A stretch of DNA of 64,000 nt from Bolinopsis microptera (taxonomy: Eukaryota; Ctenophora; Tentaculata; Lobata; Bolinopsidae): positions 7,667,726-7,731,725 of the forward strand of contig NC_087074.1 of NCBI RefSeq assembly GCF_026151205.1, in the 5' to 3' direction. Position numbers and translations under genes: made by a program. Positions within the stretch are counted from its first letter, which is position 1, and every line of letters starts with the position of its first letter. Below are positions 6,467 through 44,806 of the stretch, in pieces. The notes under the pieces are model-generated. The model was not told the origin of the DNA. It worked only from the letters and a program-made list of their open reading frames with translations, and made no database searches.

Positions 6467-6550
6467 TGTATACTGCCCCAAATTCCAACATTAATGTGGC
6501 ACCTGTTATGTACTGTGTTGGTTCATCTGAATTAATTATTATTATATTTA

Positions 6551-7972
6551 CAGGGTGGGCCAAAAGTCAGTACCCATACGTTGGCCTTTATAGCTCAGTC
6601 ACTGAATGCTCAATTTAAATACCTAGTTGACAAATTCGAGGAATTTGTCAACTCGAAAAATATTGGCGTTCATTTTTTTCAAATGGAGGTTCATTTTTAC
6701 ATTTATTTGATAGTTTGGATAGTTGGATCAAGCTAAATGTTATTGAATTGTGTTTGGCTATTCAAATTACGTTTGTCCTGAAAGAATTAGAACTGTAGCT
6801 TCTCAGATGACCGAGATATGAAGCATAACGAGTTTATTCATTACGTGTGATCAGGTGATTGGTTTACCTAATCACGTGATAAGGTGCCCCCGTTAACTAC
6901 CCCGTTAAACATTATGGGAATTGTTAAGGGTGCCCAATTAAGGTGTCGTGTCACGGTGTCACATAATCACCCAGTCAATGTTGTTAACGAGATACAGAAA
7001 ATGCTTGATAACTTCGTCATTTCTAATCCGTTTTGCCTCATGTTTTCAGATCATATGCAACATTTGATAATCTACCGTCAACATTTCAAACCGTACAACG
7101 AGTTTAACGGTTATTCTTCTTAATAAATCAAATACTTTTTTGTTCACTGCAGCCAAGCTTTGGAACACTGTTCATAAAAAAATTCTAACCTCAAGCAATT
7201 GCCTAGAAACTTCCATTAACTTGATAAAATTGAGAACCAAGGCACTATTATTACAAGTACAGGCTGCTGATTTAAAAGATACTTGGAATCCAAACAATTT
7301 TAAATTGCAGTAATCTATTCTAATCGCAGCAGCACACACTTAACACACTTAATATTACTATCATGATTGTATTATAGACTGAAAAGCTCTCAGATCAATT
7401 TTGGGCGTTTTTAACCACTTGTTGTAATGTTTTTAATTATTTAATATCTTAACTTAACTAAATTTTTATTCAGATCGAATTAACAAATAATATTTGATAA
7501 TTTATTCGATAGTTTAGTCTGATATTGATATTGACTATATTGATATTGTTATTATTGAATGAAGTTAACTCCAGACGTACATAATATTACTTCTTTTAAC
7601 AAAGGGACTTGGAGTATAAACGACCAAGTTAGCATACATTTTCAACCAACCAAGAATTCTGGAGGCAAAGGTGGGTGCGTAAACTTTATGGTCTGTACTC
7701 TCCGATCCTGTATCACCCAGGATTCTTTTCGACGTTTTTGGTAAAAGGTATATACCTTCTAGTCAATCTCTTGCTACTCCAAGTCCCCAAGATTTCTAAA
7801 CTAAAGTTCGTCCTAGTTATATTATATTATATAAAATATATTTTTTGTTTGCTGTAACTGATACTAAATAAAATTGTTGTTTTCCTGAAATTGTTGTTTT
7901 CCTGAAAAAATTAGGCGTTCAGCATGTTCAGAGAAAACAATATAGGTGTTTTAATATTGAATGGGCGTGGTC
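6551..7972. mobile_element. TA-flanked TIR element copy 1, interrupted and 3'-truncated
   Basis: It starts with CAGGGTGGGCCAAAAGTCAG after a TA, like the complete copy at 42144-42917. Sequence matches that copy from 6551 to about 7079, breaks for about 820 bp, then resumes at about 7904-7972 (ttaggcgttcagcatgttc onward). The last roughly 150 bp, including the right inverted terminus, are missing. The break holds a LINE 3' fragment, so this is a nested insertion. No transposase is seen. Confidence 0.85.
7080..7903 (+). mobile_element. Non-LTR retrotransposon 3' fragment nested in the TIR element
   Basis: The frame at about 7150-7311 reads AAKLWNTVHKKILTSSN and ends KDTWNPNNFKLQ-stop. This resembles the extreme C-terminus of LINE ORF2 proteins and is analogous to the end of the LINE at 11.2-14.8 kb. 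The tail has a doubled 17-base phrase (attgttgttttcctgaa), as CR1-like LINEs often have short 3' repeats. It interrupts a sequence that is continuous at 42144-42917, which fixes its boundaries to within a few bases. Confidence 0.65.
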
Positions 7973-11000: not shown

Positions 11001-14000
11001 GATGGCTTAATTTATGAAATTTTTGGAATAGTAAACCTGTTAAAATATTTTTCCCATACATTATCATCAGATCACTTCAGAAAGTAAAGCGAGTAGACGT
11101 GCGCACTATACAAGAAGAGAACTCCCTTCGTTTAGTTGAAATAGACGAGACCAGTAGCAGATCTATTTTTGTAGAGGTTTACAATCATTACATTGACAAT
11201 TATGGCGGTTATTTATGGATCTTAAAATTAAGCACCCACTGAAACAGCAAGCACTGATTGGGTGGTAATCTAAGAAAGTTGTCCGACTTCACAACTTTTC
11301 ATCGACCAATAATCTATTCTGATGATCGTTTCATTTGTCAGATCCCTAAAAGTGGTGTGGCGATGGTACAAAAGGAGCTGTTTCTTAAACCCAACACTAA
11401 GTTTGAGACTTGGGTCCTGACTGAGCCGGAAAACTATCAACCTGCTCCTAAGTTTATCGGTAACGACTGAAACGAAATATTTCAAATTTTGGTGATCTAT
11501 AATATGATAAATATTCATGTACGATTAGAAACTGGAAAGAAAGTACGTACCCTGGACTCAACAACCCCTCCCCCTCAGATGATAACACTCTCCCAACAAC
11601 CCCTGCCCGGCCGAATGGTAGGTCCCACTCTACTACACCTGTAAAGGCACCCTCCAATACAACTTCTCCTGATCGTAATTCTGACGATGACGACTTTATC
11701 TCACCTAATAAGTCTACACATCCTAGTCCTGGTTCGTAGAGTAATAGTAATAGTAATAGTAATAGTACTATGTTTACAGTATGCACTGAAGGGGTATCCT
11801 AGTCCTGGTTCGTATAGAGTTTCTCATCATTTCCTACCTGGATTGATGGAAAATTGTGGATTTAATTTTAATTACTAAATATTATATTATAACACTTTCG
11901 AATTGGTATCAGTATGTTTACACGACAGGGGAAACTTACGATACTATATAGCATGTCAGAACATTATAGATATTGCGTCCTCTTACGGTTTTATTCAAAT
12001 TGTATCACGCCCAACTCGCCTAACGGACCATAGTGCCACGCTTATTGACCACATCTACACAAAAAATCTTGAGGATACAATAAGCTGTAACGTCTTAACG
12101 ACAGATATGTCGGATCACTTAGCAATAGTCACTACAATAAATCTTGATAACACGCCAACCAGCAGCTACCGCTCTGCGTCTAACTCACAAAATGTATCTC
12201 AAACTGAAACACGTAGATTTAACGACACCAACAATCAAAAATTCAGAGACTTAATTATAGATGAAAGTTGGCCAGAAATTTTTAACAATACCAATGATGC
12301 CAACGAACAGTTCAATAATTTAATACGGCTTATAATAAGATTTACGAGTCTGCCTATCCTACAAAAAGACAATCACGAAGAGAAAATGAACGTGTTAATC
12401 CGAAACCATGGATGCTGCCCTGGCTCGAAGAAGCTATAGAACGTAAAAATAAGTCATATTATGATTTTGTTAAGGAACCATCTGATAGTAACCTCAGTAA
12501 ATATGACCGTCTGAAGAAGTTTTGTAATAAACACATCGATAAAGCAAAAAACAAGCACTTCAAAAATTTTTTTGAGCAAAACAAAGAAAATTCTAAGAAG
12601 CAGTGGCAAATGATAAACAGTCTTCTAAATAGGAAAAAATCTAAACCTACTTCAATAAAACTGACTGACGAAGACGGCTCAATCAGCACTCCGGCAGCTG
12701 TAGCAGAAAAATTTAACGATTACTTCTCAAACATCGCTCCAAAAATTAAGTCTGAAATTAGTAGTAGGACCACTTTTGATCCTGGTGGAACCCAGAGCAC
12801 ACTTCGCAACGCCACTCCAAGTAGTATTTACTTAAAGCCAGTCACTGCCACAGAAATTCAGGACGTCATAAACTTGCTTAAGAATAAAGCCACACTAGAC
12901 ACTAAAATTGAACCTTTAAAAATCGCTAACAGTTGTCCCAGTTTTACTAGTGTACTAGCCCACGTTGTCAACAGTTCTTTTGAACAGGGGATCTTTCCAC
13001 AGGCTTTGAAAGAAGCGAAGGTGGTCCCAATTCACAAAGGTGGATCTAAATCTGACATAAAAAATTACAGACTCTTCTTGCTTCATTCTCTAAAGTATTT
13101 GAAAAGCTAATGCATAACCGAGTTTTAAGTTTTTTAGATAAATACAGCATACTATGTGAAAACCAATACGGTTTTCGCCCGGGTAGGATTGTGAACATGC
13201 TCTTCTCAACGCAAAAGACACCATTCTTAATTCAATGTCTAAAAAGCAGGTAACTTTACTTCTTTTAATCGACTTCAGCAAAGCTTTCGACCTTGTGGAT
13301 CATTCCATACTCTTGCACAAGCTGGACCATTACGGCATAAGAGGTCAAGCCTTAAATTGGTTCAAGTCATATCTCACTAACAGGAAACAGTTTGTATCAA
13401 TTGGCTCGTCAAAATCTTCAACCAACCAAATTTTATACGGCGTGCCTCAAGGGACAATATTAGGACCTTTACTCTTTATAATCTACATAAACGACCTGCC
13501 TCAAATATCAGATATAGCCAATTTCATTATGTACGCAGATGATGCCAACATCTTCCTGATAGGAGAAAATCTTAATGAAGTTTACGATAAACTAATAACT
13601 CATAGCGATGCATTAGATAAGTGGGTACATAATAATGGTTTAGCTCTCAACCTTAAGAAAACAAATTATATGATCTTCTCTCGACAAAGAAATCTTAATT
13701 ATCGTGATGTGACAATTTCTGGTGTCACAATTGAGAGAAAAACAGAAGCCCGTTTTTTAGGAGTTATAATAGATGATAAACTAAACTGGTCCTATCATAT
13801 CTCTGCCATGAAAATGAAAATGTCCAGATACATAGGAGTCATGTACAAACTTAAAAAATATCTGCCTCTCGAAGCACGTCTTCAAATTTATCAAAGTTTT
13901 GTGCAGTCACACCTTAATTATTGCAGCCTTGTATGGGGTTTTGCTGCTAAGTCTCATATTGAATCACTTTTTGTAAAACAGAAAATGGGCCTTCGTGCAG

Positions 14001-17000
14001 TATTACCTGGTTTCGTCAATTACTGGTACAAGGACGGTATCCCCCCAGCAAGTACCAAGTCTGGCTTTTATTTACATAAAATATTGACAGTACACAGTAT
14101 CATTGTAAAGAACGCACTCATTTTAATGCATACATTGAAAAACTTTCCTAATCTAGTACCATTGTCTCTCAAGAAAACAATTCCCAAAAGCGCACCATTA
14201 TTTAATACTAACACGGATTCTATTCTCACTACACAATGGTCAGAAAAGTATGGTCAACACCCTTACAACAACTCAGTATTTTTTAAAGGTCCATTATTAG
14301 CAATAAACCGATATAATGTTGCAGCAACTTCCCCGCCTAGTCTATTTAACCTGAACATTTACAAAACTTGTATAAAAACTATGCTCATCGATCAGCAAAA
14401 TGAAAACATCGAAGACGAATGGCCTAATTTCATGTTATTTTGTATAACAGGACTAAGAAAATCAAAGCGTAACATAAACCAAAATGCCGATAATAACCTT
14501 GTCTCTACATCTTAGATTATATGCACACACTTATGCATCACTCAATAAACGTCGCATATCTCATCATTTACACTGCCAACATTGGACATTCTTTTTTATC
14601 GCCGCGTATTTCAAATCAAGTTACAAATTCTACAAATTTTGAAGTGCTCAGTCTTGTTTTACTGTTTTTAATCTTTACCTATTAACCATTAGAAAATTAA
14701 ACTTTAAGTTATAAACCTTCATTGCATACTTTTCCGGTAGAGTCTAAATTAAATAGTTAGAGATTTCCTTTACATTTTATATTTATGCATGTGCCCCACG
14801 GGGATGAATTTCTTATTACCATTGATATTATATATATTTTTTGAGTAAACATTGGCTGGTACCACGGACCAGTCCCCAACAAAAAATATTTCTCCAACAG
14901 GTATTGTACCAAATGAACATGATACCTACGACTTTGAAAAGTCGGATCCTGTAAAATCTGAGAAACTGGAAAAGACGGAGCCAGGGAACGGTGCTGTGTT
15001 ATCAGATTGTTGTTGTGATGAGATGAGACAGAGGAAACATCCTCCTAAGATCTACTTCTGCACCAGAACTCACCGGCAAATTGCGCAGATCATTCGGGAA
15101 TTAAACAAAACAGAGTTCAGCAAGGTGAGCCGGTTTACTTAAGTGCTTAGTAGATACTAGATGTACGGTCATTTATTTGTCATCATAGAGTTCTTTGGTG
15201 TATGTAGTCAATTGGAATCAATCACTAATATTCTCTACTTTCGCCGCATAGCAGCTGGTTAATAAATATTATATGATGTTGATATGAAATTTAAAACAAA
15301 TTTCTCCGCAGACTAGGTCCTTATTTTTCAGTCCTCATGAAAATTCACTTATCTGTCGGGCGCATCGCGTCTGAATTAGGATAGCCGCGCGCACAACACA
15401 ACAAATTCATCTAAATTTTAATGTTTTACCGCGTGGTTTGAAATCACCATCCAAGTTGCTGAGATGTAATATAAAATCGAATTATTGATTTATTGGCGGG
15501 AATTAAGCATGGCTCTAGAGTAACTTACAGACCACTTGAATCGTTATAACTCCTTTTAGTACCAAATGGTCGCCTTACTTATGATATTCGGTCGCGAAGT
15601 TCCCCTAACAAGGGTCCTGAGGCCAGGGGTTTCTTCGTGCCTGCCTCTCTCATACATTGGTCGCTGCTAGCCTAGATTACTCATCAACGATTGCGGTAGC
15701 ATCTAAACTGGTCGTACACGGGATTGTTTTACCCTGATAGATTGTCCGAGAAGCAGTCTTCGATCTAAAATTTTCTGTTTCAGGTGCATATGTCAATACT
15801 GTCCAGCAGAGAGCACTCCTGTGTTAACCCTAAACTAGCTAAGGAATCCAATAAAAATGATAAGTGCAGAGAGCTTCGTCAAGAAAGTAAGTTTCTAATT
15901 TAATATTGAAAATGAAAGTAATAATCTACTAACATTCTGAACGTGTCCTTTAACGATATCATCATGATAATCTGACTCAAGTACCACGTTTATAATTTAG
16001 TCAACTCTTTCCAGAGAAGTGTATGTACGGAGAGAACGCCAACAAACTTACCAGCCGGTCAGTGTTGAAACGGAACGGTATAAACCAGGCCTGGGACGTT
16101 GAGGAGTTAGCTCGAGTCGGGAAACGGGAAATAGCCTGTCCTTACTACGCATCTGTAAGCTTATTTTAACTGTGTAGAACTAATCAGGTTGTTTTATCAG
16201 ATTGTTATTATTATAGCGTTCAATTGTCGTACTCTCACGTTGTTTAAAATGTGATGAGAAACGCACTGTTGTATTGTCTTGACAAAGTCTTCGTCGTAGC
16301 CAGTAACTAGCTGCCAGTGTAATTAGTAGTTATTGAGGGCTAGTAAAGCTGGAGAATGTGGTTATCTGTAAATATGTGGCAGTCAAACTATAGAAGTTTC
16401 AGTAAATCCCACCTCTTTCTCAGTGTTGTGAGTTGTTTTTGTGAGCTCTGAGATATTGTGTGCTCAGTGTTCACTAATAGTTAACCTATAATAATTGTCG
16501 TTTGTAAAAACTTGCGTTTCAATCCTTTCTGACGATTTCACTTACAAATAATAATATACGTAGAATCACGAACAGTATTTTATCAGGATGAATTTTATTT
16601 GATAATAGTATCAGGTGGAAATCAATGATATTCTTATATTAATATAACGAACATTTTAAACTTATATGATTATTTTATAAGGTATCAGAGTTCTACAATT
16701 CTATGTATTTTCAGGTGGAAATGTCCAAGACGGCTGACATAGTGTTCGCTCCGTATAACTACATTCTGGACCCTTTTATTGCTGCTCAACGAGAACTAGC
16801 ACTTTCTGACAACGTTAGTTAGTTAGTTAGAGTATAATTCTACCTAGCTTCCGTACAATATTATTTTAATATTTTGTAATCAATACAGACAACCTTGTTA
16901 TACTGCTCGCAATTTAAAACCATCTAATCCTAGTCTCGAGTGTCTTGTCAAATCAAAAATACGTAAAACAGCGTGACTCTTCTATTAGTAATTCTTATAA

Positions 17001-23933: not shown

Positions 23934-24315
23934 AGCCGCTCCTACTAAATCGCTCGCCCAAATTTTAAGAAAATTCTTTTGAAAAGGCCCTTTGGGCATG
24001 AAAGATCGGTGTATTTTTGGAAGCTGATTCCGAATCACCCCCCATGACGTAGGGTTAAAATGCTTTCCTGGAGAGTTATGGGCAAAAAACCGTTTTGGTC
24101 ACGTAACAGGCTAGTAAAACGTGAATTCGATTATTTAGGGCTCGGGTTAGGGTTAGGGTTGTGGTTAAGATTATGGATAGCTTCGGGGTTATGGTTAGGG
24201 TTAGGCGTTGGGATTAGGGTTTATGTAAAACCGTTTTGTACGGCTGCAAAACCAAAAAAACCACAGTCACGTGAAATTTTTGGGCGAGCGATTTAGTAAA
24301 AGCCCTTTCAAGCTG
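23934..24315. mobile_element. Inverted-repeat element with telomere-like core (copy also at about 25863-26245)
   Basis: The arms share actaaatcgctcgcccaaa (left, 23944-23962) and its reverse complement (right, about 24280-24298), with looser pairing outside. The interior carries gctgattccgaatcaccccc, atgacgta and ggttaggg blocks. Fragments recur at 30795-30825 (gggcgagcgatttagtagga) and 31913-31990 (gctgattccgaatcactccc), so it is a dispersed non-autonomous family. Class uncertain. Confidence 0.65.
24137..24222 (+). repeat. Degenerate TTAGGG (interstitial telomere-like) block
   Basis: gggttagggttagggtt and later ggttagggttagg, ggattagggtt are separated by diverged units. Copied with the duplication at about 26067-26152. 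It matches the common animal telomere repeat, but sits inside a mobile-looking element rather than at a chromosome end. Confidence 0.7.
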
Positions 24316-24501
24316 TTTAAATCTGCGCGCGTATTTTGGATAAATGTTACCTGAGGACCCCAGGCTTTAATGCAAATGTTGGTAAACAAACAATAGAGAT
24401 TAGGCGGAATGACAGGCTGAGCGCGGCCCAGTAAGGATAAATGTTACCTAAACTAAAGGGCTATATCTTACCACAAATACAAAATGTAGATGTCAGGTAT
24501 T

Positions 24502-27500
24502 CTGCCGTTCCCTGAGAAAAGGCAGTAAGTCACATCGATGTCATTTTGAGAAAATGGGACAAACGTGTTTGTCGTTTTTTAGGTAATTTTATTCGTATAA
24601 ATGGGGTTAATTTTGACATCTATGTGTAAATAAATTATTGTCATATGTCCTAAACATGCTTAAAAGCATAAATTCACCAACACTGATCTATAAAAACCAT
24701 TTTTCTCCAGAATAACTGAACTATTTTCCCATCCGCATTGGACTAACTGCCTTTTCTGAGGGAATTTCGGACTTACTGCCTTTTATCAGAATCGATTTCA
24801 ACCGATTCCTCCCTAGAAAGGCAGTAAGTCCATTTTTCTCAGATAAAGTCAACACAAAAAATACAACATTTCTATATTTTTGATCATATCCTTGCAATAT
24901 AATTATGTGGGCCTCCTGTGCATTGCAAGTGTGTAATATTGACGAAAAATGGATAATTTCTCGCTCAAAATGCATATAACTTCGTAAATATCGAATATTT
25001 TGGAATAATTTTTACAGCATCGTATTCAGCTCGGTCAGACGCATTAATGATTAATTTGGGAAAAAAAATATTTGAACGTACAATATTTAAAGCACCAAAA
25101 TTTTCAAAAAATGTTTCAATAATTCACACAAGGGGGGACCCTTGTGTTCAGGTTCAAAAATTTTGAAAATAATATTTCTTTAAATTTGTAATTATTAGTA
25201 CCAAAATTTTTTGCTTGATGAGCTGATTACGACCAGTACCACATACAAATTATTTCGATATAACTAAAACTGTGGAAGTTATAGGCCAAAAACTATAAAA
25301 ACTGCAAATAAATCTGGACTTACTGCCTTTTCTCAGGGGAAAAGTTCCCTCACGGAAAAAGTTCCCTCAGAGAAGGCTGTACAAATGGACTTACTGCCTT
25401 TTCTCAGGGAAGGTTTTGGGATAACGTGCTAAATTGTCAAGTTTTGTGTGACTTACTGCCTTTCGTGACAGCTAAAACAGTATTTTTATAACGTGATTCA
25501 TAGCTTAAGTTGTAGAGAATCTTCTCCTGAAAATTTTATACTATCCATAATTCTTCGATCAAATAGAAAACCCTATACAACCTAAGTAAGTTTAAGGTAA
25601 ACAAAGGCAAAAAATCAAACATTGGACAACAGACATCATAGCACAAATATACACTTTATCAATGCTGTTAGATACGCGCGTAGCGTATTCAGCTCAGAAA
25701 ACGTTAAACGTGACGCGCTTTTTTCACAAGTAGATCGAATAATATCCCGTGCCGCAGCTTCGGCGGTCGCACGCTACTGCAAGCGAAAGGGCTCTGATTA
25801 GAGCCAGTTGGGGCCGATAACTGAATCTCTGAGATCAGAGCCTTAAAATTGCGTGGCTTTCAAGCCGCTCCTACTAAATCGCTCGCCCAAATTTTAAGAA
25901 AATTCTTTTGAAAAGGCCCTTTGGGCATGAAAGATCGGTGTATTTTTGGAAGCTGATTCCGAATCACCCCCCATGACGTAGGGTTAAAATGCTTTCCTGG
26001 AGAGTTATGGGCAAAAAAACCGTTTTGGTCACGTAACAGGCTAGTAAAACGTGAATTCGATTATTTAGGGCTCGGGTTAGGGTTAGGGTTGTGGTTAAGA
26101 TTATGGATAGCTTCGGGGTTATGGTTAGGGTTAGGCGTTGGGATTAGGGTTTATGTAAAACCGTTTTGTACGGCTGCAAAACCAAAAAAACCACAGTCAC
26201 GTGAAATTTTTGGGCGAGCGATTTAGTAAAAGCCCTTTCAAGCTGTTTAAATCTGCGCGCGTATTTTGGATAAATGTTACCTGAGGACCCCAGGCTTTAA
26301 TGCAAATGTTGGTAAACAAACAATAGAGATTAGGCGGAATGACAGGCTGAGCGCGGCCCAGTAAGGATAAATGTTACCTAAACTAAAGGGCTATATCTTA
26401 CCACAAATACAAAATGTAGATGTCAGGTATTCTGCCGTTCCCTGAGAAAAGGCAGTAAGTCACATCGATGTCATTTTGAGAAAATGGGACAAACGTGTTT
26501 GTCGTTTTTTAGGTAATTTTATTCGTATAAATGGGGTTAATTTTGACATCTATGTGTAAATAAATTATTGTCATATGTCCTAAACATGCTTAAAAGCATA
26601 AATTCACCAACACTGATCTATAAAAACCATTTTTCTCCAGAATAACTGAACTATTTTCCCATCCGCATTGGACTAACTGCCTTTTCTGAGGGAATTTCGG
26701 ACTTACTGCCTTTTATCAGAATCGATTTCAACCGATTCCTCCCTAGAAAGGCAGTAAGTCCATTTTTCTCAGATAAAGTCAACACAAAAAATACAACATT
26801 TCTATATTTTTGATCATATCCTTGCAATATAATTATGTGGGCCTCCTGTGCATTGCAAGTGTGTAATATTGACGAAAAATGGATAATTTCTCGCTCAAAA
26901 TGCATATAACTTCGTAAATATCGAATATTTTGGAATAATTTTTACAGCATCGTATTCAGCTCGGTCAGACGCATTAATGATTAATTTGGGAAAAAAAATA
27001 TTTGAACGTACAATATTTAAAGCACCAAAATTTTCAAAAAATGTTTCAATAATTCACACAAGGGGGGACCCTTGTGTTCAGGTTCAAAAATTTTGAAAAT
27101 AATATTTCTTTAAATTTGTAATTATTAGTACCAAAATTTTTTGCTTGATGAGCTGATTACGACCAGTACCACATACAAATTATTTCGATATAACTAAAAC
27201 TGTGGAAGTTATAGGCCAAAAACTATAAAAACTGCAAATAAATCTGGACTTACTGCCTTTTCTCAGGGGAAAAGTTCCCTCACGGAAAAAGTTCCCTCAG
27301 AGAAGGCTGTACAAATGGACTTACTGCCTTTTCTCAGGGAAGGTTTTGGGATAACGTGCTAAATTGTCAAGTTTTGTGTGACTTACTGCCTTTCGTGACA
27401 GCTAAAACAGTATTTTTATAACGTGATTCATAGCTTAAGTTGTAGAGAATCTTCTCCTGAAAATTTTGGTACCAATAATAATATCTCAAAATTTCGAAAA

Positions 27501-32825: not shown

Positions 32826-34682
32826 TGTATAATTGTACAGTGGTCCGATCACCAGTATACCTTGTAGAAGTGGTAACTTACTGTGATCTGGGGGACCCCC
32901 ACGACTGTTCAGCCTTATTTAATCCAATTTTTAAAGTGGTTCTACCTCTCATATTGAATTTATTTTCATACTCTTCATAGTCGTTGTTATGGACACAATA
33001 TTCCTAGCACCTTATGTATGGATTAATTAAAACTGTGCTTTTACCATTTTCATATGATAACGTGCTGATGAATCTGCTTTTACCGATACCATCGATAAAT
33101 ATATTTCTACTGTCATTTTGAATGTACTTGTTTTACACCGACGACACAGTTAGCTCAGTCTTCAGTCGGTCAGTAGACACTACCGTACTATACATAATCT
33201 GAGCACAGTAATTACAAATGTTACACTTGAGAACTTGAGATTTTATTATGTTCGTCACACCCGGTTTTGGCATGATAGTCAGACCGATTTTTCGACTGCA
33301 GTAGCTACGGTTATACTCGTATTCTTGTTCAGTTGTTCTACCTAAATATTACTAGGCTACAAAACGTTACAGCGAGATAACGTTAAGTTGGCTGATCGTG
33401 TACAGACAATCCCCGAATTAATAAAAACCCAATTACAATGAACCGTGTAATGTGACGTCACAGGGTCCTTCGCCAATATTTTGTAATTTCATTATCTGCA
33501 ATCTCTACACTACCATATTGAATTTGACCACCAGTGCATAACATCTCACTGAACCACTAATTAACTGATGAGGTTTATCCAGAATCCTGGACCAGGACAA
33601 TAAGAAAATTTAAATTACATTTGTGGTTTAGAACTAGGGAAAGATCTAGGCTCCCACCAATCCGATCGGGAGAAGTTAAATGGGGCGGGCTCTTATCAGC
33701 TAAAATCTGCACACCAGTTTTATGATAATGTGAGGGTTGGTGTTCTTCTTCTTCAGTCAAACTGACCCTTTATCTGCCATATAGATACTAGATAAAACTC
33801 GAGTATTGTTTGCCATGTTGATTGGTGCCCGAATCAATGAAACGTAGACCTACAACATAAACCATGGTGGCACTTTTTCTATAAGTTAATAACTTAGCCT
33901 GCCAAGAACCAGGGTGGCAGGCAAATAGTAACCGCACGTTTTACGTTATTTTGAGGCTTTTGTGAAATCTCTCAAAATAACATTTCTTCACTGTTGATCA
34001 GGCCAATTTTTTTGAAAAAGTTTTAACCTCAATAACACTGAGTGTATTTACATATAGTTATACAGAGCGGTAAGATTCTATCATTTAATTCATTTTGACC
34101 CAAACCGCCGCCGTGAAATTTTGACCCATACCGCGGTCTTTGATGTATCAAATCGTCAAATCAACAATTAATACAGCTGTTAACGATATTAATTAGTTCT
34201 TCAATGTAGAGTGTTATCAAGAAATCAATTCATTTTCATCAGTTACACAACCAAATTACCATCATTTACATAGTAGACCGCGGTTTGGATATATAATAGT
34301 TAGACCGCGGTCAGACCGCCGCTGCCGATCAATTTTGGCGGCGCGTCCAGACCGCCGCCGCCTAAAAGTAACACGGTGCACATCTTTGCTTTGAATCTTG
34401 ATTTTTCAAACTTTGTTTCATACTTCGTCCTGTAATGGCTGTTATGGTTACACCGCTGGTTGGTGTGGTTACGCCACTGGTCGTTATGGTTATAAATTAC
34501 ACTTTGTTTTATACTTTGTCCTGTAAAGCGACGTGTTCATTTTTAGTTTTGTGCCATTTATTGTTTTGTCCACCGTATTTCAGCAACATAGTTGATTAAT
34601 TAAGTGTTTTGCAGTGCACTTCTTATTGTGTGCTTGTTTTAGGGGTAGGAGGGGTTGAGGCAAAATTAGGAAAGGCAGAGTA
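32826..34682. other. Intergenic, no gene seen; GC-rich inverted motifs at about 34105-34375
   Basis: Mostly AT-rich. Between 34105 and 34375 the words accgccgccg, accgcggtc, gaccgcggt and gaccgccgccg occur in mirrored order, like a worn TIR element. The phrase gttatggttacaccgctgg / gtggttacgccactggtcgtt (34440-34490) is doubled. Confidence 0.4.
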
Positions 34683-34845
34683 AGCGATTAGAGGTTAGTA
34701 AGCGGTTAGTAGGTGATTAAGCGGTTAGTAGGTGGTTAAGCAGTTAGTAGGTGGTTAAGCGGTTAGTAGGTGGTTAAGCAGTTAGTAGGTGGTTAAGCGG
34801 TTAGTAGGTGGTTAAGCGGTTAGTAGGTGGTTGGTAGGTGGTTAA
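34683..34845. repeat. 19-bp minisatellite upstream of the phosphatase gene
   Basis: About eight units of aagcggttagtaggtggtt end 69 bp before the ATG at 34914, so they lie in the likely promoter or 5' UTR. Variation is limited to aagcagtt versus aagcggtt and a shorter last unit. Confidence 0.9.
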
Positions 34846-34913
34846 AGGTTAGTTCTTAATGTTCGTATCATTCATAAACCACTGCTCTAATTCTCACTCA
34901 ACACTTTCCCAGA

Positions 34914-37900
34914 ATGAAAGGAAGGCCAGTTTTACTCCTTTTGTTCGTGGTTGTCTCCTTTGTATCCAGTAAAATGGACTTAATTGGAGACCCTGTATCC
35001 AACATTGTGGAGCGGTCTGAGTCAGGATTTACCTATAACGGGGCGGCGAATGATAACTTGAGTTATAAAGTATCAGAGGGAGAAGACGGAGAAGACGGAG
35101 AAAACGGAGAAGCGTACGAGTTTAGTATACCTTATGATAAGGCTATTGAAGACTTTACTGGAGTTGCGTCTCCAGTGTGTGGTGATGAGATAGACCAGCT
35201 GGACGTGTCCAAAATGAAGAAACCTCATCAAATTAGACTTTCTTACACTGGTTTGAACGCTACTTTTGTTTCAATATAGGATATAAGTTTAATTATAATA
35301 CCACTTTGTGAAATCGTTAGTTTTTTGAAAGAATACTGACCAGATTATGTCTCGAGATAAACGGCGAATGTGTTTCAGGGGATCCAACTGAAATGGCTAT
35401 TACGTGGACTACGAACGGACGAACTGAGCATGAGCTGGTATATTTCCAACAGTAATCATCAGTCATCATCAGTCATCATCAGTCATCATCACTCATCATC
35501 ACTCATCATCACTCATCATCACTCATCATCACTCAATAATGCAAAATAAATTATATCATAACCTTGATTTGTAAATTCTGATTTCTCCTTTCCTACTAAT
35601 TAAAACAGTACTTCATTAATCTATCTACCTCGTCAGGTTAACTACGGACCAGTAAAATCTGATCTGAACTACACGTCCACCTCCATCTCCCACCAGTATA
35701 AATGGCACTGGGACGCGGAGCTGAGTGAATGGTACTACACCAGCGGCTTCATACACGAGGCTCTCATGATTAACCTCATACCTGGCATGATCCACTACTA
35801 TCAGGTTCTTATTGCTTCTGAGGGTTGTTATGGTGTAATGTCACTCGTTGTTATGGTTATAGATTAAGTGTGTCCACAAGATGGTTATATTAATGGTTGA
35901 AACAGAAAATCAGAAAATGGGTCGTGAGTGGACTGATGATAGGGAAAATGGTTAGGACATTCATTTTTGATATCAAATTAAGCCTTGCCATTCGCTTGGT
36001 TTCACTCCCAGTATCAAACCACAATTATAATTAACGTTTACAAACAATCTCACCTCTAAAATGTTGTTCTCCCCCGCAGATCGAAAGTAACGGAGAGGAA
36101 TCAGCAGTGATAAAGTTTGTAGCAGCTCCAGATCCGGGCTCCAACACTCCCGTCTCTTTCATGCATGTTGGAGATGTCGGAACATTCGGGTAGATAACTT
36201 TCAGTTCCTAGAATTAGTTCCTAAATACACGTCCTATGTAACTTGGATTTAAAACGCTTAAACGTTTATAATCAGTTGACTTTATATATTTATTTTCTTT
36301 CTGCGATTGTGAACTCCCTCTTGTCCTCTCTCCCTGATAGAAGCTTATAGCAGCAAAGCTATATTAGAACTTGCTGCAAAATTTCGCATCTGCTCATGGC
36401 CAGTTTAAATTCTGGACGTTATTCATAACAAAAACTTACATCTAAAACTTCAGGACGTCAGTGAAGGTAACGAATGACATGATGAAGAGGATGGAAGAAC
36501 AACAGTTTCACGGCTTGATCCACTGTGGGGATATCAGCTATGCGAACAAGTTCAACCACAGTCGTCCTAAGAACGCCGAGCAGGTAAAGTATTTGATTAG
36601 TCATCTTTTCAACAACTAAAACATGCAGTCAGCTCTTTTATCTACCCAGAGTTATCCATCCGAACTTAATTCAAGCTTTCTGGTTTTCCCGGCCTGTATG
36701 TTATACTGTTATAGATCTGGAATTGGAAATAATTGATTCTTGAAAGTGGTGGTATCGTAAAAGGGCCCCCAGATATCCATTATTGATAACCCCCTCTCAG
36801 AAAGTTTGGGACACGTGGGGCCAGATGGTGGAGCCGGTTGGAAGCAAGATGGCTTACATGGCAGTTCCAGGCAACCACGAGCTGGACATTTACGATTCTA
36901 CTAACGAAAACGGGACAATCTACACCAAACGCTTCATCATGCCGGGTCAGTAGTTATTGTTAACATTAATGTGCGATTCCAATCGAATTCGAGTGTGTTA
37001 CATGTCTATTGTTTACACCCAAACCAATAAAGCAATAAGATGGAGATTTACATTGACTTTCACAAAACCAGCTAAGTTGTCTTCTTGGAATATCTTCAGT
37101 TTAATGATGATAAGTTTCAGGTAACGAGCGTTATTTCTCATTTGGAGTGGGTATGGTGCACTTCGTAGCAGTTTCTACTGATGAGTCTATTGATGCAAGC
37201 TCTACCCAGGGGGAATGGTTCAAGGTTCGTGTTTAACAGTTTGATATAACTTTAATAATACTTTAATAATATGTACTTTAATATAAGTTTAATGCTCTGT
37301 GATAATGCTTTAATATAACTTTAATACTCTGTTATAATACTTTAATACTCTGTTTTAATTTCTTATCTTTAAACAAAGTTAATGCAATTATGCTCTTTTG
37401 ATAATGGTGTACAGTAAAACTTCGATTTATCGTGGAGTTTGTGGGAAAAGAAAGAGCTGTGGTAAATAAAGGTTTTGTTCCTTCACTGTTCACATTATGA
37501 TAATTGATTATGTATGTCACAGTTAACTATGTATATTTTTTCTTCCAGAATGTTCTGAAGAAAGTGAACCAGAACCGTAAACAGTGGCCTTGGCTGGTTG
37601 TATTCCAGCACAGACCCATCTATAACTCCAACAAGTGAGATTATGTGTATATTTTAATGTCCCCCAAAAATATGTGTATATTTTAATATCCACCCAAAAA
37701 TATGTGTATATTTTAATATCCACCCAAAAATATGTGTATATCTCATAAGTGTGAGATTTAATTTCGTGTTCATGAATTATCGCGCGTGAACATTGAGAGT
37801 CGAGATTCTTGTTTTTTGTTTAATATGTTTGTCAAACTCTGATTCAAATACGATTATGACAGAAAATCTTACTTGCCTAAATCTTAATCGATTTAGAGGA

Positions 37901-39352
37901 TACAATTTAACCTTCAAATTTGGAAAGGATAACCTCTATATTATAATCAATTCAAAAATCCAAAACAAATTCATGGGTACAGCATGATTGGTACATAAAC
38001 CAATAATATTTGATATTCATCGTTGTTTGTCATTGCTATGTTTCTCGATCGATGTTTTGATTTTATTTACTCGTTTTAAGATTCTTTGGGTCCCATCGTA
38101 TTCAATTGTTTCGTTTTTCAAACGCATCATTAAAATCTCGGGTCGTGACTTAATCGTTTAATACATTATTTCACGGACACTTTTAGTTTTTACATTTACC
38201 GATAATTAGGGGATCATCCTCGTGATCGTCATGGTAACCGTTAGAAATCACTGCAATAAACGTCACATGGTAACCAGAAACCACTAGAAATCACGGAAAC
38301 TGGACGGGTACGAACGCATACGAGAACCCAGACGGTTACAAGCCCTACCACTTGGGGTGGCCTGACCACTTTGAGGACTTGATCCTGGAGAATAAGGTGG
38401 ATCTAGTGTTGGCTGGTCACGTGCACCATTACGAGAGGTCCTGGCCGGTCAGGGACAGAAATGATACTGTTCAGTCGTGAGTTTCCACTGTTTATTAGAT
38501 TTAATACATGAGTTAGTTAGTTAATACAGTCGTGAGTTTCTATAGTTTATTAGATTTAATAAAAGTGTTAGTTAGTTAATACAGTCGTGAGTTTCTATAG
38601 TTTATTAGATTTAATACAAGTGTTAGTTTGCGCTAATTATTGTTAAGTAGTTTGCGTTTTGCAAATTACGAGGTTTGAGATATTGAGACAATAATGAACC
38701 AAGAAATATCTGGAAGAAATAGTGTTTTCTATCCACTACCATCTGTTCAGGTACAACAAGGTTGACAGACCTATACATATCACGTGTGGACACGGGGGCA
38801 AGGGACTGTACAGGTAACTAATTATAAAGTTCACATATATTGTTTTAATTCTGGAAACATTGTTTATCTATCGTATATTTCTGCTGTTGGTAAGCTGTCA
38901 TGATTATGACTTCATACCCTGTTGACTGTGATCAATCACACTGACTAGTGACTACTGACTAATTAAAATTCTTCAGAGTTGTGTGGGATACAAATGACAC
39001 TAACACGTATGATGAGGTACCCCCCATGTTCAGTGCCGCCAGAGATAACAACAATTGGGGCCACTGCGAACTTGACTTTATTGACGCTAAAACCGCTAAG
39101 GTAAAACAAGTCTATAACAAGGCAGTAATTATAATTGTCAAGGTTAAAATTGCCAAGGTAACAGTTAACGTTGTCAAGGTAACAGTTAAAGTTGTCAAAG
39201 TAACAGTTAACATTCCCTCGTTTCAGCACCGTATGTACAGGATGGGAAGTGACATACCGACAGAAAACATTACGATAACACGCTCAGTTGGTGTTAGGGT
39301 ATTTGTGAGCCTGGCAGTGCTTTTAGCTAACTTTATTATCTTACTGACTTAG
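34914..39352 (+). CDS. Purple acid phosphatase (ACP7-like): shared 5' exons plus 3' cassette 1
   Basis: Exons 1-8: 34914-35250, 35379-35437, 35637-35804, 36080-36189, 36454-36583, 36801-36945, 37121-37224, 37549-37634. Cassette 1 exons 9-12: 38288-38476, 38751-38813, 38977-39100, 39227-39352. All phases close; 546 aa. The protein starts with a signal peptide (MKGRPVLLLLFVVVSFVSS) and an acidic stretch. The dinuclear metal-site motifs appear in family order: GDVG, CGDISYAN, GNHE, VVFQHRP, and in exon 9 GHVHHYER. The tail (FVSLAVLLANFIILLT-stop) is hydrophobic to the last residue, as in GPI-anchor signals. Such enzymes hydrolyse phosphomonoesters outside the cell or in lysosomes. Exon 8 ends in phase 2 (codon AA|N). 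Two further exon 9-12 sets lie downstream without their own exons 1-8. Confidence 0.95.
35447..35535. repeat. 10-bp (atcatcagtc/atcatcactc)n microsatellite
   Basis: About nine units begin roughly 10 bp after the phosphatase exon 2 donor (35437/35438). Confidence 0.9.
37646..37742. repeat. 26-27-bp repeat just after the exon 8 donor
   Basis: About four units of atgtgtatattttaatatccaccca. It starts 12 bp after the exon 8 donor, the site where the choice between the three 3' cassettes would be made. Confidence 0.88.
38470..38632 (+). repeat. Tandem copies of the phosphatase exon 9 donor
   Basis: The junction cagtcgtgagttt (exon end CAGTC plus donor gtgagt) and about 45 bp of intron recur near 38527 and 38582. 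This gives three successive 5' splice sites about 55 bp apart. Confidence 0.9.
39101..39215 (+). repeat. Repeated CAAGgtaaca motif after the exon 11 donor
   Basis: After the true exon 11 end (GCTAAG|gtaaaa), units of roughly 21-24 bp with gtcaaggt / gccaaggtaacagttaac recur about four times, each a plausible 5' splice site. Confidence 0.75.
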
Positions 39353-40464
39353 TACTAGCAGATTTTGTTAAGGCGGAGAGTCCAAAGGATTTGAAAGTTA
39401 TAAAGCATTAACTGATTTATATTTAACGACTATAGAATTTTGATTTTTCAGAGTTTTGTTTAAGATCATTCAAAGAGCGATATAAATAGCAGTGACCCAA
39501 ATCTCGGAAATTTGTGACCCAGAAATGACTTTTGAATACATACGGCGATATTGTTTGAATAAAAATGAAGGTAAAAATGAACCGTTGTTGGATTTTACAG
39601 TGTTACAAACCGTTCCCGTTGGACCAATGAAATTGAATTACAAGTAACTGTGACACCCATTAGTAACTTAACAACTTGATCAAATATTGGTTCAATAATT
39701 GACCTTATGGGCGGCGATTGTAAAATTATCAACTCCAATTATGGTCCATTTTAAGCTTCATGTTGGTTATCAATTATTGATTATAACTTAAATAACGCTT
39801 ATAATAATTATGTGTGACCTCTTGGTTGCTGAACTTTTTCCCTCGCGATATATCATCGCCGGACATTCTGTGCTCATTATATCTGAACAATAAATAGTGA
39901 GATGAAAGGACGAAGGAAAAGGTTTTTATGCGAGATTCTTAATATTTTGATATTTTTATTATTCGTAATCTAAATCTTATTTATCACTTCCAATGATATT
40001 ATAAATTTAATATGTATTTAATAAAATTTAACATCGCGGGCCCATCGAACATAGTGGCACCGACTACCATATAATAAGCCTTATATTAATGCTTTACACA
40101 TAATTTATTAATGTACACTGTACAGTGATTGAAAATACAACATAGCAAAAGTCAAAACTGCAAAAGGACCATATTATTAGGTAAGAAATTATTAACTTTT
40201 CAATTGTTAATTGTGTCGAGCATGAATTAATGATTCCAACTTAATCTCAATATATCCCTGATTACATAATATATTCAATATTCATGTCTCAATATTGTGA
40301 ATGCACAAAGTAGTATATCTTTCTCCTGGAGCTCCATTTTAACATTATATTTCTGAATGGGTAAAGATTAAAGCATGTTAAGATTCAATTTATGGCCTGT
40401 TGGGATATGAAAGCACCATGACATTATGCCGAATATATCACCATATCTGACTGCAACATGACAG
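39353..40464. other. Spacer between phosphatase cassettes 1 and 2
   Basis: Contains a candidate polyadenylation signal aataaa at 39558. No phosphatase 5' exon, signal peptide or start exon is visible, so cassette 2 has no private 5' half here. Confidence 0.6.
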
Positions 40465-41808
40465 GATACATGGGAACTGGACAGGGACGAACACGCCCCA
40501 GTACTCAGGGCCCCCTGATCTGCCCCCATTTGAAGGGTGGCAGGAGTATTACGAGACTTTACTGGTGGAACACGGAGTGGACCTGGTCCTTAACGGTCAC
40601 GTGCATCACTATGAGAGGACCTGGCCAATCAGGAACAGGGTAGAGACCGTGAAATCGTGAGTTCTTAAATCTTGTTATTTGTTGTTGTTAGTGTTGAGGA
40701 GTCGTTCACTGTCACATGTTACGTAATAACTTTTTGGTCAATTTTTAACCCCTTCCTCGTCCGTTATCACTATCCGTTTTACACATAGCTATTGTATTGA
40801 AATTAAACTAGCGTAATCATTAAGAAACCCCTCAGTAAATATTACGTAATATTTGAAGGTCTCCGTACTCCTGACTTTCGCGATAAATACTAAATAGGAT
40901 TGAATGTGATAGTTGTAAACAACTGTTTTTCTGTATAGTCACAATATAAATTTTACCTGTCAGTTATCTCAGATAACTCACCAACCTTCATGTCACAGGT
41001 ACCAGAATGTGAAGTATCCAGTTCACATAACATGTGGCCACGGAGGACAGAGCTTATACAAGTGAGTACGTGTTAATTTACCACTTCCAACTAGTAGAGA
41101 ACTAGGACATTTGACCACATTCCAGACTTTAACCAAAGAAACCAAAAGCCAGAATTCATATGGATAATAACAGTCAACTCAGCACCGGCGCCTGGTGATT
41201 TTTGCAAAATTAAACTTCGCAAACAACTCATCCATTTCCAGGTACGTCCCAAAGACGGATAAAGAGGACAGCTACAATGACACGGTGCCGCTATTCGTAG
41301 CTTCTAGAACTAATACAGACTGGGGGCATTGTGAGCTGGAGTTCATTAATCACACTACTGTCAAGGTTAGTTCTTGCTGATTATATTAAGTAAACTAAAT
41401 AAATCTGAAGATATTCTCGATAAGGAATTAGGCGGTATTATTCTTTCAATTTCGGTGAAACTATAGCTGAATATAGTTTGATGATATTGATACAACTTTG
41501 CTAACTGTTTAGATTTACTGTTTATAATGTTAAACTATATTATATATATTATATGGCCAATGGACCCCAGGCTATTAAAATTCGGCAGAATGACAGGCTG
41601 AGCGCCGCCCAGTAAAACTATATGCTTATGATTAGATTTCACATATAATTATAAACTACACGTACACCTTCAGCACGCTATGTATCTGATGGGAGAGAAT
41701 ACACCAAGAGAGGAACACGTGGCGATCATTACCAAAGCATCTGGCACTACGCCAACTTTTGTTAACTTATCGCTTGTTATTGCTGGACTCGTATTATTTA
41801 TTTTCTGA
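40465..41808 (+). CDS. Purple acid phosphatase 3' cassette 2 (alternative exons 9'-12')
   Basis: Exons 40465-40656, 40999-41061, 41242-41365 and 41674-41808 (stop). They have the same number, order and nearly the same lengths as cassette 1 (192/63/124/135 versus 189/63/124/126) and identical phases. Exon 9' begins in phase 2 and reads IHGNWTGTNTPQYSG, then VDLVLNGHVHHYERTWP. Exon 10' has HITCGHGGQSLY, exon 11' TDWGHCELEF, exon 12' the tail FVNLSLVIAGLVLFIF-stop, again ending in the hydrophobic run. Spliced after exon 8 it gives 550 aa. All acceptors and donors look usable and no stop interrupts, so it is under selection or very young. It lacks the first four metal motifs and cannot work alone. 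Confidence 0.9.
41560..41616. repeat. Fragment of a dispersed repeat
   Basis: ggcagaatgacaggctgagc followed by gccgcccagtaa also occurs, slightly diverged, at 24394-24434 and in its duplicate near 26323. It lies in the intron between exons 11' and 12'. Confidence 0.65.
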
Positions 41809-42143
41809 GATACGATCTGAGACGTTCATTTGAAATAAGTTTAATAGAATATTCGAAGAAATACGATCACAGTGATTTTAAGGAAATATGGGGATTGGGG
41901 ATATCTTCTTTAGTGACCCTGACCATAACGTACCAAGTTATCACATATTTTGGGGGCAGGGGCAACCCGCATTCATCGATTCCCTAGCCCATTTTGCCAA
42001 AAGGTTAGGACAAAATTGGCGGATGGGGGTCACCATATCATATTTTAATTCGTGAGGTGATCAACGGATTTAATGTTAATCAAATTTTTGTTGGAAAACT
42101 TTTGATCCGACGTCATGAATTTGCATGTTCTCAGTCAATAATA
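41809..42143. other. Spacer downstream of cassette 2, no gene seen
   Basis: AT-rich, no repeat recognised, and no phosphatase 5' exon. Confidence 0.45.
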
Positions 42144-42917
42144 CAGGGTGGGCCAAAAGTCAGTACCCATACGTTGGCCTTTATAGCTCAGTCACTGAGT
42201 GCCCAATTTAAATACTTCTTTCTGGTATGACTTAGTACCACCACTGGTTCGAGGAATTTGTCAACTCGAAAATTATTCGCGTTCATTTTTTTCAAATGGA
42301 GGTTCATTTTTACATTTATTTGATAGTTTGGATAGTCGGATCAAGCTAAATGTTATTGAATTGTGTTTGGCCATTCGAATTACGTTTGTCCTGAAAGAAT
42401 TAGAACTGTAGCTTCTCAGATGACCGAGATATGAAGCATAACGAGTTTATTCATTACGTGTGATCAGGTGATTGGTTTACCTAATCACGTGATAAGGTGC
42501 CCCCGTTAACTACCCCGTTAAACATTATGGGAATTGTTAAGGGTGCCCGATTAAGGTGTCGTGTCACGGTGTCACATAATCACCCAGTCAATTTTGTTAA
42601 CGAGATACAGAAAATGCTTGATAACTTCGTTATTTCTAATCCGCGTCCGTTTTGCCTCATGTTTTCAGATCATATGCAACATTTGATAATCTACCGTCTC
42701 TGAAAAAAATTAGGCGTTCAGCATGTTCAGAGAAAACAATATAGGTGTTTTAATATTGAATGGGCGTGGTCTAAAATATTAGAATTTTCAAATTTTGACG
42801 ACGGAATCCTCGAACCAGTAAGTACAGTATGCCATCTGCAAAGCAACAGCTCTCAAATATAAAACACGGCGGAGCTATTAAGGCCAACGTATGGGTACTG
42901 ACTTTTGGCCCACCCTG
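42144..42917. mobile_element. TA-flanked TIR element, complete copy (Tc1/mariner-type ends)
   Basis: 774 bp bounded by TA on each side. The left end CAGGGTGGGCCAAAAGTCAG (continuing tacccatacgttggcctt) is matched by its reverse complement at the right end, about 45 bp with one or two mismatches. The interior matches the split copy at 6551-7972. No transposase is present, so it is non-autonomous. It sits between cassettes 2 and 3. A lone terminus (ttttgggccaccctgtata) remains at 47778-47796. Confidence 0.9.
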
Positions 42918-43208
42918 TACAATTTGGAATTCTGATTTTTTAATATTATTAATCGACATTTTTGATAAACTCAGTAAAATTATTTTTTGTTTAACTTTAA
43001 CGATTGATTGCTCTTTTTCTGCTGTGACTTTTACTTTGTTTTTAACTTAACTACATTTTGTAATATTGCTAAAATCGTAACCCAATATTTAACCCAAAAA
43101 ATGTAAGTCACCAAGATGAAATTTAAATGGACACGTTTTATTGAAACAAAAACGTTTCTATAAAGTTGTCCAAACAATGCTAGTATTACGAGATCCAATA
43201 ATTTTCAG

Positions 43209-44806
43209 TAAGCACAAGAACTGGGAAGGTCGTGTTTTCAACACGAGTAAAAAATACGTTAACCCGGAGATAATAGGCTGGACGGACAACTACCCCACCC
43301 TACTGGTGGAGCAGAACGTGGACCTGGTCATCATGGGACATGTTCACCACTATGAGAGGACCTGGCCTATGAAGAATACTCAGACCTACGATACAAGGTT
43401 TGTGGAACATAGCTGGTGAATTACTTTACAAGTTTACTAGCGATCTCAATATTACCGACAATATATGAGCAGTCTATTCGCATGGAGTAGCTTGAAATTA
43501 TCATGGAACTAATTATAAATCACAGTTTAACAATAACTAATTAGCTAATTGTTCATCACAATTACCATTATAACTAATTAACTAATTGTTCAGTTATGAT
43601 AACGTGAGGTTCCCTGTTCACATCACTTGTGGTCACTCTGGTAAAAGCCTGTACAGGTATTGAATAAAGTAGCTTATTTAATGGTTGACGTAATCAAATG
43701 TTCTCTCCTCAATTCTCAAATGCTTTCATCCGGATGAAATTCATAATTCTCAAGATATAAGATTTATCTCGGAGTTTATTTTAATCTCTTAAACTTGTTT
43801 ACAACACACTATCCAGGTTAGTGAAATCAATCCCGACATCGGGATCCCCGACTCCCGAGATTTCCCGACGATTTTCGGGATAATTTTACGTATCAGAGCT
43901 ACTTCAGCTATAATTGAGTTATGTCCAATTGAAGGGTAAGACTGGATTTGGAGGAGTAATTTGAGGGCCTACGAAATAGTTTCTACCGGTATTTTGTCTA
44001 GCTGAACATCCTGCACCCTTTGAACATCCTCGATTTGCCTGAATCTTAAAAATGGCGAGCTGGAGGCTAGTCCTACAGGTTCTGAACGGACGTATTAGAA
44101 ATACTTCAGCTATTGAGTTATGACTTATGTCCAATTGAAGGGTAAGACTGGATCTAGAGGAGTAATTTTAGGGCCTACGAAATAATTTCTACCGGTAATT
44201 TGTCCAGCTGAACATCCTGCATCCTTTGAACATTGGGTTCGAGACTCCATGTTTGCATCCTTGATACCTAACTTAAAGGATAACAATCGATTCCAGGTAC
44301 TACGATTATTACGAGAATGGCACGAAGTTCGACTCGTACCACAAGTCCAACCCGGGCTGGTCTGCTCACAGAGATAATGCTCACTGGGGCCACTGTGAAC
44401 TGAACTTTATTGACGATACCAGCGTAGAGGTGAGCTTATAAACCGAGGACACCCAGCTGGGACCTCCTAGCTTAGGATTTCCGAATAGAGCATTATAGAG
44501 CATTATAGACTAAAGAGCATATCCTGTTGATCAGAGGTCCGATATCTTATGAAAGATTCGACTTTCTTCAAGAATAAATTTTAACTTAACAGTTAACAGT
44601 CCTGAAGAGAGGATCACTAGTTGACTGATCAAACATATCATGTTATCTAGTAACCGTCTATTTTTCAGCATCGGATGTACCAGATGAACGAAACTGAGCC
44701 CTCTGTGAAGGTATTAATAACCAGATCTAAAGACAGATGGTCTTCAGCTACCCCTCTCACACTCTCTACAACTCTCATATTGTTATCTTTCTCTTTAATC
44801 TGGTGA
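43209..44806 (+). CDS. Purple acid phosphatase 3' cassette 3 (alternative exons 9''-12'')
   Basis: Exons 43209-43397, 43594-43656, 44297-44429 and 44669-44806 (stop). Exon 9'' follows an attttcag acceptor in phase 2 and reads KHKNWEGRVFNTSKK, then VDLVIMGHVHHYERTWP. Exon 10'' has HITCGHSGKSLY; exon 11'' is 9 bases longer than in the other cassettes (WSAHRDNAHWGHCELNF). Exon 12'' ends TTLILLSFSLIW-stop. Joined to exons 1-8 it gives 553 aa. It is the most diverged of the three (it lacks the NWTGT motif of exon 9). No start exon precedes it; the DNA between cassettes 2 and 3 is mostly the TIR element at 42144-42917. Confidence 0.9.
43899..44236. repeat. Direct repeat of about 130 bp in the intron between 10'' and 11''
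   Basis: Two copies (about 43901-44032 and 44099-44236) share gtccaattgaagggtaagac, gggcctacgaaata and tagctgaacatcctgc-type words at roughly 90 percent by eye. Confidence 0.85.

Follow-up and report, generated by a model that had tools for sequence, protein, structure and literature searches.

A purple acid phosphatase locus of the ctenophore Bolinopsis microptera with one shared 5' part and three homologous 3'-terminal exon sets

CG1637 of Drosophila melanogaster is described as a trans-spliced gene in which a common 5' exon is combined with three homologous 3' sets of three exons each, the authors noting that the FlyBase structure is unlike the published one (PMC3228551); elsewhere it is tabulated as an acid phosphatase, with the iron/zinc purple acid phosphatase as its human homologue (PMC4238976). 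In PGRPLC of Anopheles gambiae, the first part of the PGRP domain is contributed by the common exon 4, to which each isoform appends a pair of variable exons whose introns sit at the same relative positions, and a hybrid LC2/3 transcript has been detected (PMC2715215). Also described are the enzyme gene GSTD1 of the same mosquito, with four alternatively spliced variants (PMC2588609), the sulfotransferase gene pip of Drosophila, with eight terminal clusters for which competing RNA structures are reported (PMC9013439), and chelicerate sDscam, in which tandem cassettes of two or four exons are joined to constant exons (PMC4835542). Here we analyse a locus for a predicted purple acid phosphatase (PAP) at positions 34914-44806 of a 64,000-nt window of the ctenophore Bolinopsis microptera (contig NC_087074.1, positions 7,667,726 to 7,731,725; window coordinates are used throughout), in which eight exons are followed by three homologous sets of four. 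We consider it likely that these sets are alternative 3'-terminal cassettes, exon 8 being spliced in cis to one set per transcript, so that one gene would give three isozymes, a judgement that is built mainly on anatomy and selection.

The shared 5' part spans 2.7 kb on the + strand (34914-37634) and was examined by splicing and translation, Pfam, alignment to kidney bean PAP and tblastn. It consists of exons 1 (34914-35250), 2 (35379-35437), 3 (35637-35804), 4 (36080-36189), 5 (36454-36583), 6 (36801-36945), 7 (37121-37224) and 8 (37549-37634), which sum to 1139 nt and close in phase 2, and it carries a signal-peptide-like start, a Pur_ac_phosph_N domain and the metal motifs GDVG, GDISY, GNHE and VVFQH. 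Intron 8 (37635-38287, + strand, 653 nt) begins at the donor CAA/gtgaga, which would be the sole donor to serve all three sets. The sets follow on the same strand and in order, 0.65-5.6 kb from exon 8. Set 1 (38288-39352) has exons at 38288-38476, 38751-38813, 38977-39100 and 39227-39352, is entered through a weak acceptor (TAG) and supplies GHVHHYER, the PAP C-terminal region, a hydrophobic tail and a stop; set 2 (40465-41808) has exons at 40465-40656, 40999-41061, 41242-41365 and 41674-41808; and set 3 (43209-44806), with the entry acceptor TTTTCAG, has exons at 43209-43397, 43594-43656, 44297-44429 and 44669-44806. The first to fourth exons of each set, here called x1 to x4, measure 189/192/189, 63/63/63, 124/124/133 and 126/135/138 nt in sets 1/2/3, and splice phases are identical across the three sets. 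A single 5' part followed by several homologous 3' sets of the same phase, each with a stop of its own, is the layout of a gene with tandem alternative 3' ends.

When the locus was spliced and translated in a script from the genomic sequence, the exon boundaries, phases and lengths given in a preliminary description of this DNA were recovered to the base. Its statement that frames and splice sites are intact in all three sets likewise held: each spliced product is open to its own stop, GT stands at every one of the 17 donors and AG at every one of the 19 acceptors, and the isozyme sizes of 546, 550 and 553 amino acids for sets 1, 2 and 3 were reproduced. The same description spoke of a swap of half an enzyme, which is too much, the swapped part amounting to 167, 171 and 174 residues, or about 31% of the protein. 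It also stressed that every set matches exon 8 in phase 2; the phase itself is correct, but it lends weak support and we discarded it as proof of shared use, because duplicated exons inherit their phase.

By domain content, the product of the locus is predicted to be a PAP. PF16656, PF00149 and PF14008 exceed the curated Pfam cut-offs in all three spliced products, PF14008 narrowly (24.0, 26.6 and 27.3 against a cut-off of 23), and the solved structures scoring best by sequence are purple acid phosphatases, with 1xzw first and kidney bean PAP (1kbp and others) among the ten matched. The metal ligands of kidney bean PAP are D135, D164, Y167, N201, H286, H323 and H325, and the chain numbering of 1kbp equals the residue numbers of these ligands and of the substrate-site histidines. 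When the set 3 product is aligned with 1kbp, all seven of these ligands are paired with identical residues, and in the alignment of the isoforms the seven columns are invariant across the three products. The equivalents of D135, D164, Y167, N201, His202 and His286 come from the shared part (set 3 product against 1kbp), the end of exon 8 splits the codon aligned with Asn294, and the positions of His295, His296, His323 and His325 come from each set, as expected from the earlier claim that the cassette junction divides the active site. Residue 381, aligned with His295, is Asn, Ile and Lys in sets 1, 2 and 3, and residue 382, aligned with His296, is His in all three; this placement was obtained for set 3 against 1kbp, with set 2 agreeing against 1xzw and set 1 placed via the isoform alignment. 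Judged from these alignments, part of the active site is set-borne; the metal ligands are the same in all products, which differ next to a conserved histidine and over the remaining C-terminal stretch. At the N terminus, residues 6-17 are strongly hydrophobic (mean 3.42), which fits a signal peptide, and each set closes with a hydrophobic tail of 17 residues, whose mean hydropathy of 2.64, 2.45 and 1.62 in sets 1, 2 and 3 was reached by 0, 0 and 1 of 5000 shuffles. Such tails would fit a glycosylphosphatidylinositol or membrane anchor, and the product is probably secreted and tail-anchored.

The pattern of substitution indicates that the sets are old and under purifying selection. Amino acid identity is 49% between sets 1 and 2, 44% between 1 and 3 and 48% between 2 and 3. 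For the same pairs, the proportion of synonymous differences (pS) is saturated at 0.85, 0.81 and 0.76, while that of nonsynonymous differences (pN) is unsaturated at 0.34, 0.41 and 0.38; a shuffled-codon control gave pN/pS near 0.96. The comparison of nonsynonymous with synonymous change among the cassettes that the preliminary description had proposed therefore returned pN well below pS in all three pairs, which implies that all three sets were held protein-coding through much of their history. Bearing on possible gene conversion, at columns with identical amino acids the same codon is used in 32 of 81 (sets 1-2), 33 of 70 (1-3) and 40 of 78 (2-3), and sets 2 and 3 share a 76-nt match at 79%. 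Identity by exon is 13-15/20 in x2, 26-35/57-61 in x1, 16-19/40 in x3 and lowest in x4 (13-15/41-42), though the hydrophobic tails are kept in all three. The coding frame of x1-x3 has no stop in any set, against 0 to 9 in the other frames of x1 and x3. In a neutral-drift simulation of set 2 (2000 runs per distance), the frame stayed stop-free in 12%, 3% and 0.1% of runs at distances of 0.1, 0.2 and 0.5.

Separate 5' parts for sets 2 and 3 would have to lie in gap 1 (39353-40464, 1112 nt) or gap 2 (41809-43208, 1400 nt). When the three isoforms were searched by tblastn at low thresholds on either strand of the window, no second copy of exons 1-8 was found, in keeping with what had been claimed for the gaps before, and matches beyond the locus had E values of 1.3 or worse. 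Tandem full-length gene duplicates are therefore not supported, since tblastn found no 5' part for each copy in the window. Full 5' parts of 2.7 kb would in any case hardly fit in the gaps, which have room for a short unrelated first exon. When both strands were scanned for codon usage, no strong coding signal emerged in the gaps: the maxima were 8.8 bits for gap 1 and 14.2 and 13.1 bits for gap 2, no better than the 15.4 bits reached on the antisense strand of intron 8. With no tblastn match and the scan at the level of intron noise, hidden copies of the 5' part in the gaps were rejected. Between intron 8, gap 1 and gap 2, all matches are short, 28 nt being the longest. Within gap 2 lies a 788-nt element (42137-42924) with 53-nt inverted repeats and TA flanks on both sides, a second copy of which is found at about 6549-7079 (93% over 557 nt); it looks like a mariner-type non-autonomous element.

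Based on this anatomy, we hypothesize that a tandem duplication copied the last four exons and not the first eight, and that transcription would start upstream of exon 1, exon 8 would be joined in cis to x1 of one set, and the stop codon and 3' end of the chosen set would complete the mRNA. Given the weak entry acceptor of set 1 and, on one measure, also of set 2, regulation or a transcriptional race may decide between the sets. The isozymes would keep all metal ligands and would differ next to the active-site histidine and over the remaining C-terminal third, and substrate range or localisation is the likely property tuned by the choice of set. In fact, x1, x2 and x3 all begin in phase 2, so one set per mRNA is not enforced by the frame, and each of the 15 combinations of x1-x4 in cis order remains open up to one terminal stop; with the phases matching at every junction, hybrid sets may be formed as well. 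The entry acceptor of set 1 has the lowest score of 19 in a position weight matrix (PWM), is the sole TAG, the other 18 being CAG, and has a poor pyrimidine tract; the matrix was trained on 16 sites, and the exon 4 acceptor also scored low. If the acceptors are ranked by pyrimidine fraction at -11 to -4, the bottom two of 19 are the entries of set 1 and set 2, both at 0.38, against 0.62 for set 3; two of the three entries would occupy the two bottom places in about 2% of orderings (3/171, calculated post hoc). An AATAAA stands at 39558, 206 nt past the stop of set 1, and again at 39889 and 40020. Two observations on introns within the sets may be added: the third intron of set 1 (39101-39226, 126 nt) is stop-free in frame and contains repeats of about 21 nt, and its retention would add 42 residues to isoform 1 in frame, and a direct repeat of about 140 nt (89%) lies at 43888-44233 within the second intron of set 3.

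Several results weigh against alternative use of the three sets. The small PWM gives 368 of the 549 AG sites in the locus a score no lower than that of the set 1 entry, and this set could be losing use; its weak entry hints at a regulated choice and also fits a set falling out of use. The entry of set 2 is 14th of 19 from the bottom by PWM (6.94), and longer pyrimidine windows give ties, so that its weakness depends on the measure and the weak acceptors offer a hint of regulation only. No AATAAA or ATTAAA was found over the 1400 nt that follow set 2, and past set 3 the nearest AATAAA stands at 45434, 628 nt on; as intron 8 also has both AATAAA and ATTAAA, and motif variants occur in all stretches examined, poly(A) motifs are weak evidence either way. 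Pairing of the first 200 nt of intron 8 with the lead-ins of sets 2 and 3 (15 mononucleotide shuffles each) was inconsistent, being better than shuffled at the end of gap 1 (z -3.2) and worse at the lead-in of set 3 (z +2.0); with the two sets in disagreement and only short matches shared, a Dscam-like docking-selector arrangement is without consistent support. The codon-usage scan is weak, scoring 10 of the 20 real exons below 14.2 bits and two of them below zero, so that a small unrelated first exon in the gaps may be overlooked. Finally, a recent end to selection, or a recent loss of separate 5' parts, would be compatible with stop-free frames, with a low probability already at a distance of 0.1.

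Alternatively, sets 2 and 3 could be orphan 3' fragments left over from genes that were once complete, or could be partial duplicates that are now unused or feed other transcripts. Recent orphaning would keep the frames intact (probability of remaining stop-free 0.12 at a distance of 0.1), and canonical poly(A) signals were not found close after sets 2 and 3. On the other hand, either two recent losses of all eight exons would be required, or unused duplicates that stayed intact past synonymous saturation, and tblastn found no remnant of exons 1-8 in either gap; we regard this explanation as unlikely. Should the single 5' part be an artefact of assembly, in which the near-identical 5' parts of three tandem genes were collapsed to one, these parts would have to be all but the same in sequence, against 3' parts that disagree at roughly half of the residues; the 64000 bases of the window contain 0 N, and the short mutual matches of intron 8, gap 1 and gap 2 include nothing like a repeated joint, all of which makes a collapse highly improbable.

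Sets 2 and/or 3 could instead be transcribed from promoters of their own in the gaps and be joined by trans-splicing to exon 8 of a separate 5' transcript. With CG1637 called trans-spliced (PMC3228551) and gaps of 1112 and 1400 nt that are spacious enough for promoters, the idea has a basis, but in the ctenophore locus all parts are ordered on one strand and exon 8 lies within a few kilobases of every set, which allows cis-splicing without special machinery. Moreover, a FlyBase review names mod(mdg4) and lola as the two fly genes for which trans-splicing has good support, and treats other candidates as still awaiting definitive evidence (PMC4528330). We hold trans-splicing to be quite unlikely here, and retain cis-splicing of exon 8 to alternative terminal sets as the likely explanation.

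Around the locus, eight open reading frames (ORFs) or parts of ORFs were scanned against Pfam, of which five pass the cut-off (a cyclophilin, a helicase C-terminal domain, CFAP298, a WD40 protein and a reverse transcriptase), two are without match and one falls below the cut-off. The introns and the CFAP298 neighbour would by themselves suggest a ciliated eukaryote, probably an animal. The ORFs at 12319-14512 are long and retroelement-like, part of the second matching RVT_1. Identical stretches in ORFs of both strands are found at 24048-25011 and again, displaced by about 1.9 kb, at 25957-26941, pointing to a tandem duplication of recent date. At 34673-34862, a tandem array with a step of 19 nt stops about 50 nt ahead of the start codon of exon 1.

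The preliminary description held that a choice of terminal exons on this scale would be unusual, which overstates the case, as precedents exist and one of them is reported for a fly gene listed as a PAP (PMC3228551, PMC4238976). Apart from CG1637, no title on a PAP array of this kind stood among the literature matches listed, which cover subscription journals sparsely. Scans that each started from two short peptide patterns, and are narrow to that extent, returned two Gemmatimonadetes loci with short matches among genome contigs and no related locus among viral contigs.

In their described parts, the other systems each depart from the ctenophore locus. PGRPLC encodes a peptidoglycan receptor, not a metalloenzyme, and its sets have two exons. 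The variants of GSTD1, which reportedly have a common N-terminal part and a different C-terminal exon, belong to an unrelated enzyme. The enzyme encoded by pip is unrelated as well, and the case is treated under untranslated regions, whereas here no consistent competing RNA structure was seen. In sDscam, the cassettes stand at the 5' end and are generally preceded by promoters. CG1637, from what is described of its layout and its listing by family, is the closest, combining a constant 5' part with three alternative 3' sets in the same kind of enzyme; unlike the eight common exons and four-exon sets of a single layout found here, it has one common exon and three-exon sets, of which set C has other intron positions. 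If exon 8 joins all three sets in Bolinopsis microptera, the three phosphatases encoded by one gene would have all metal ligands in common and differ next to a substrate-site histidine and in the tail, a domain-swap experiment made by nature. We may further speculate that the 3'-cassette layout, as seen here and in CG1637, arose in PAP genes repeatedly or long ago, and that here, with the cut beside a conserved active-site histidine, splicing would rewrite part of the active site and yield up to 15 isozymes in cis order, hybrids among them; in this full form the idea is rather doubtful. The parallel with CG1637 would raise the question of why the PAP family keeps its front constant and varies its back, and whether the two layouts go back to common descent.
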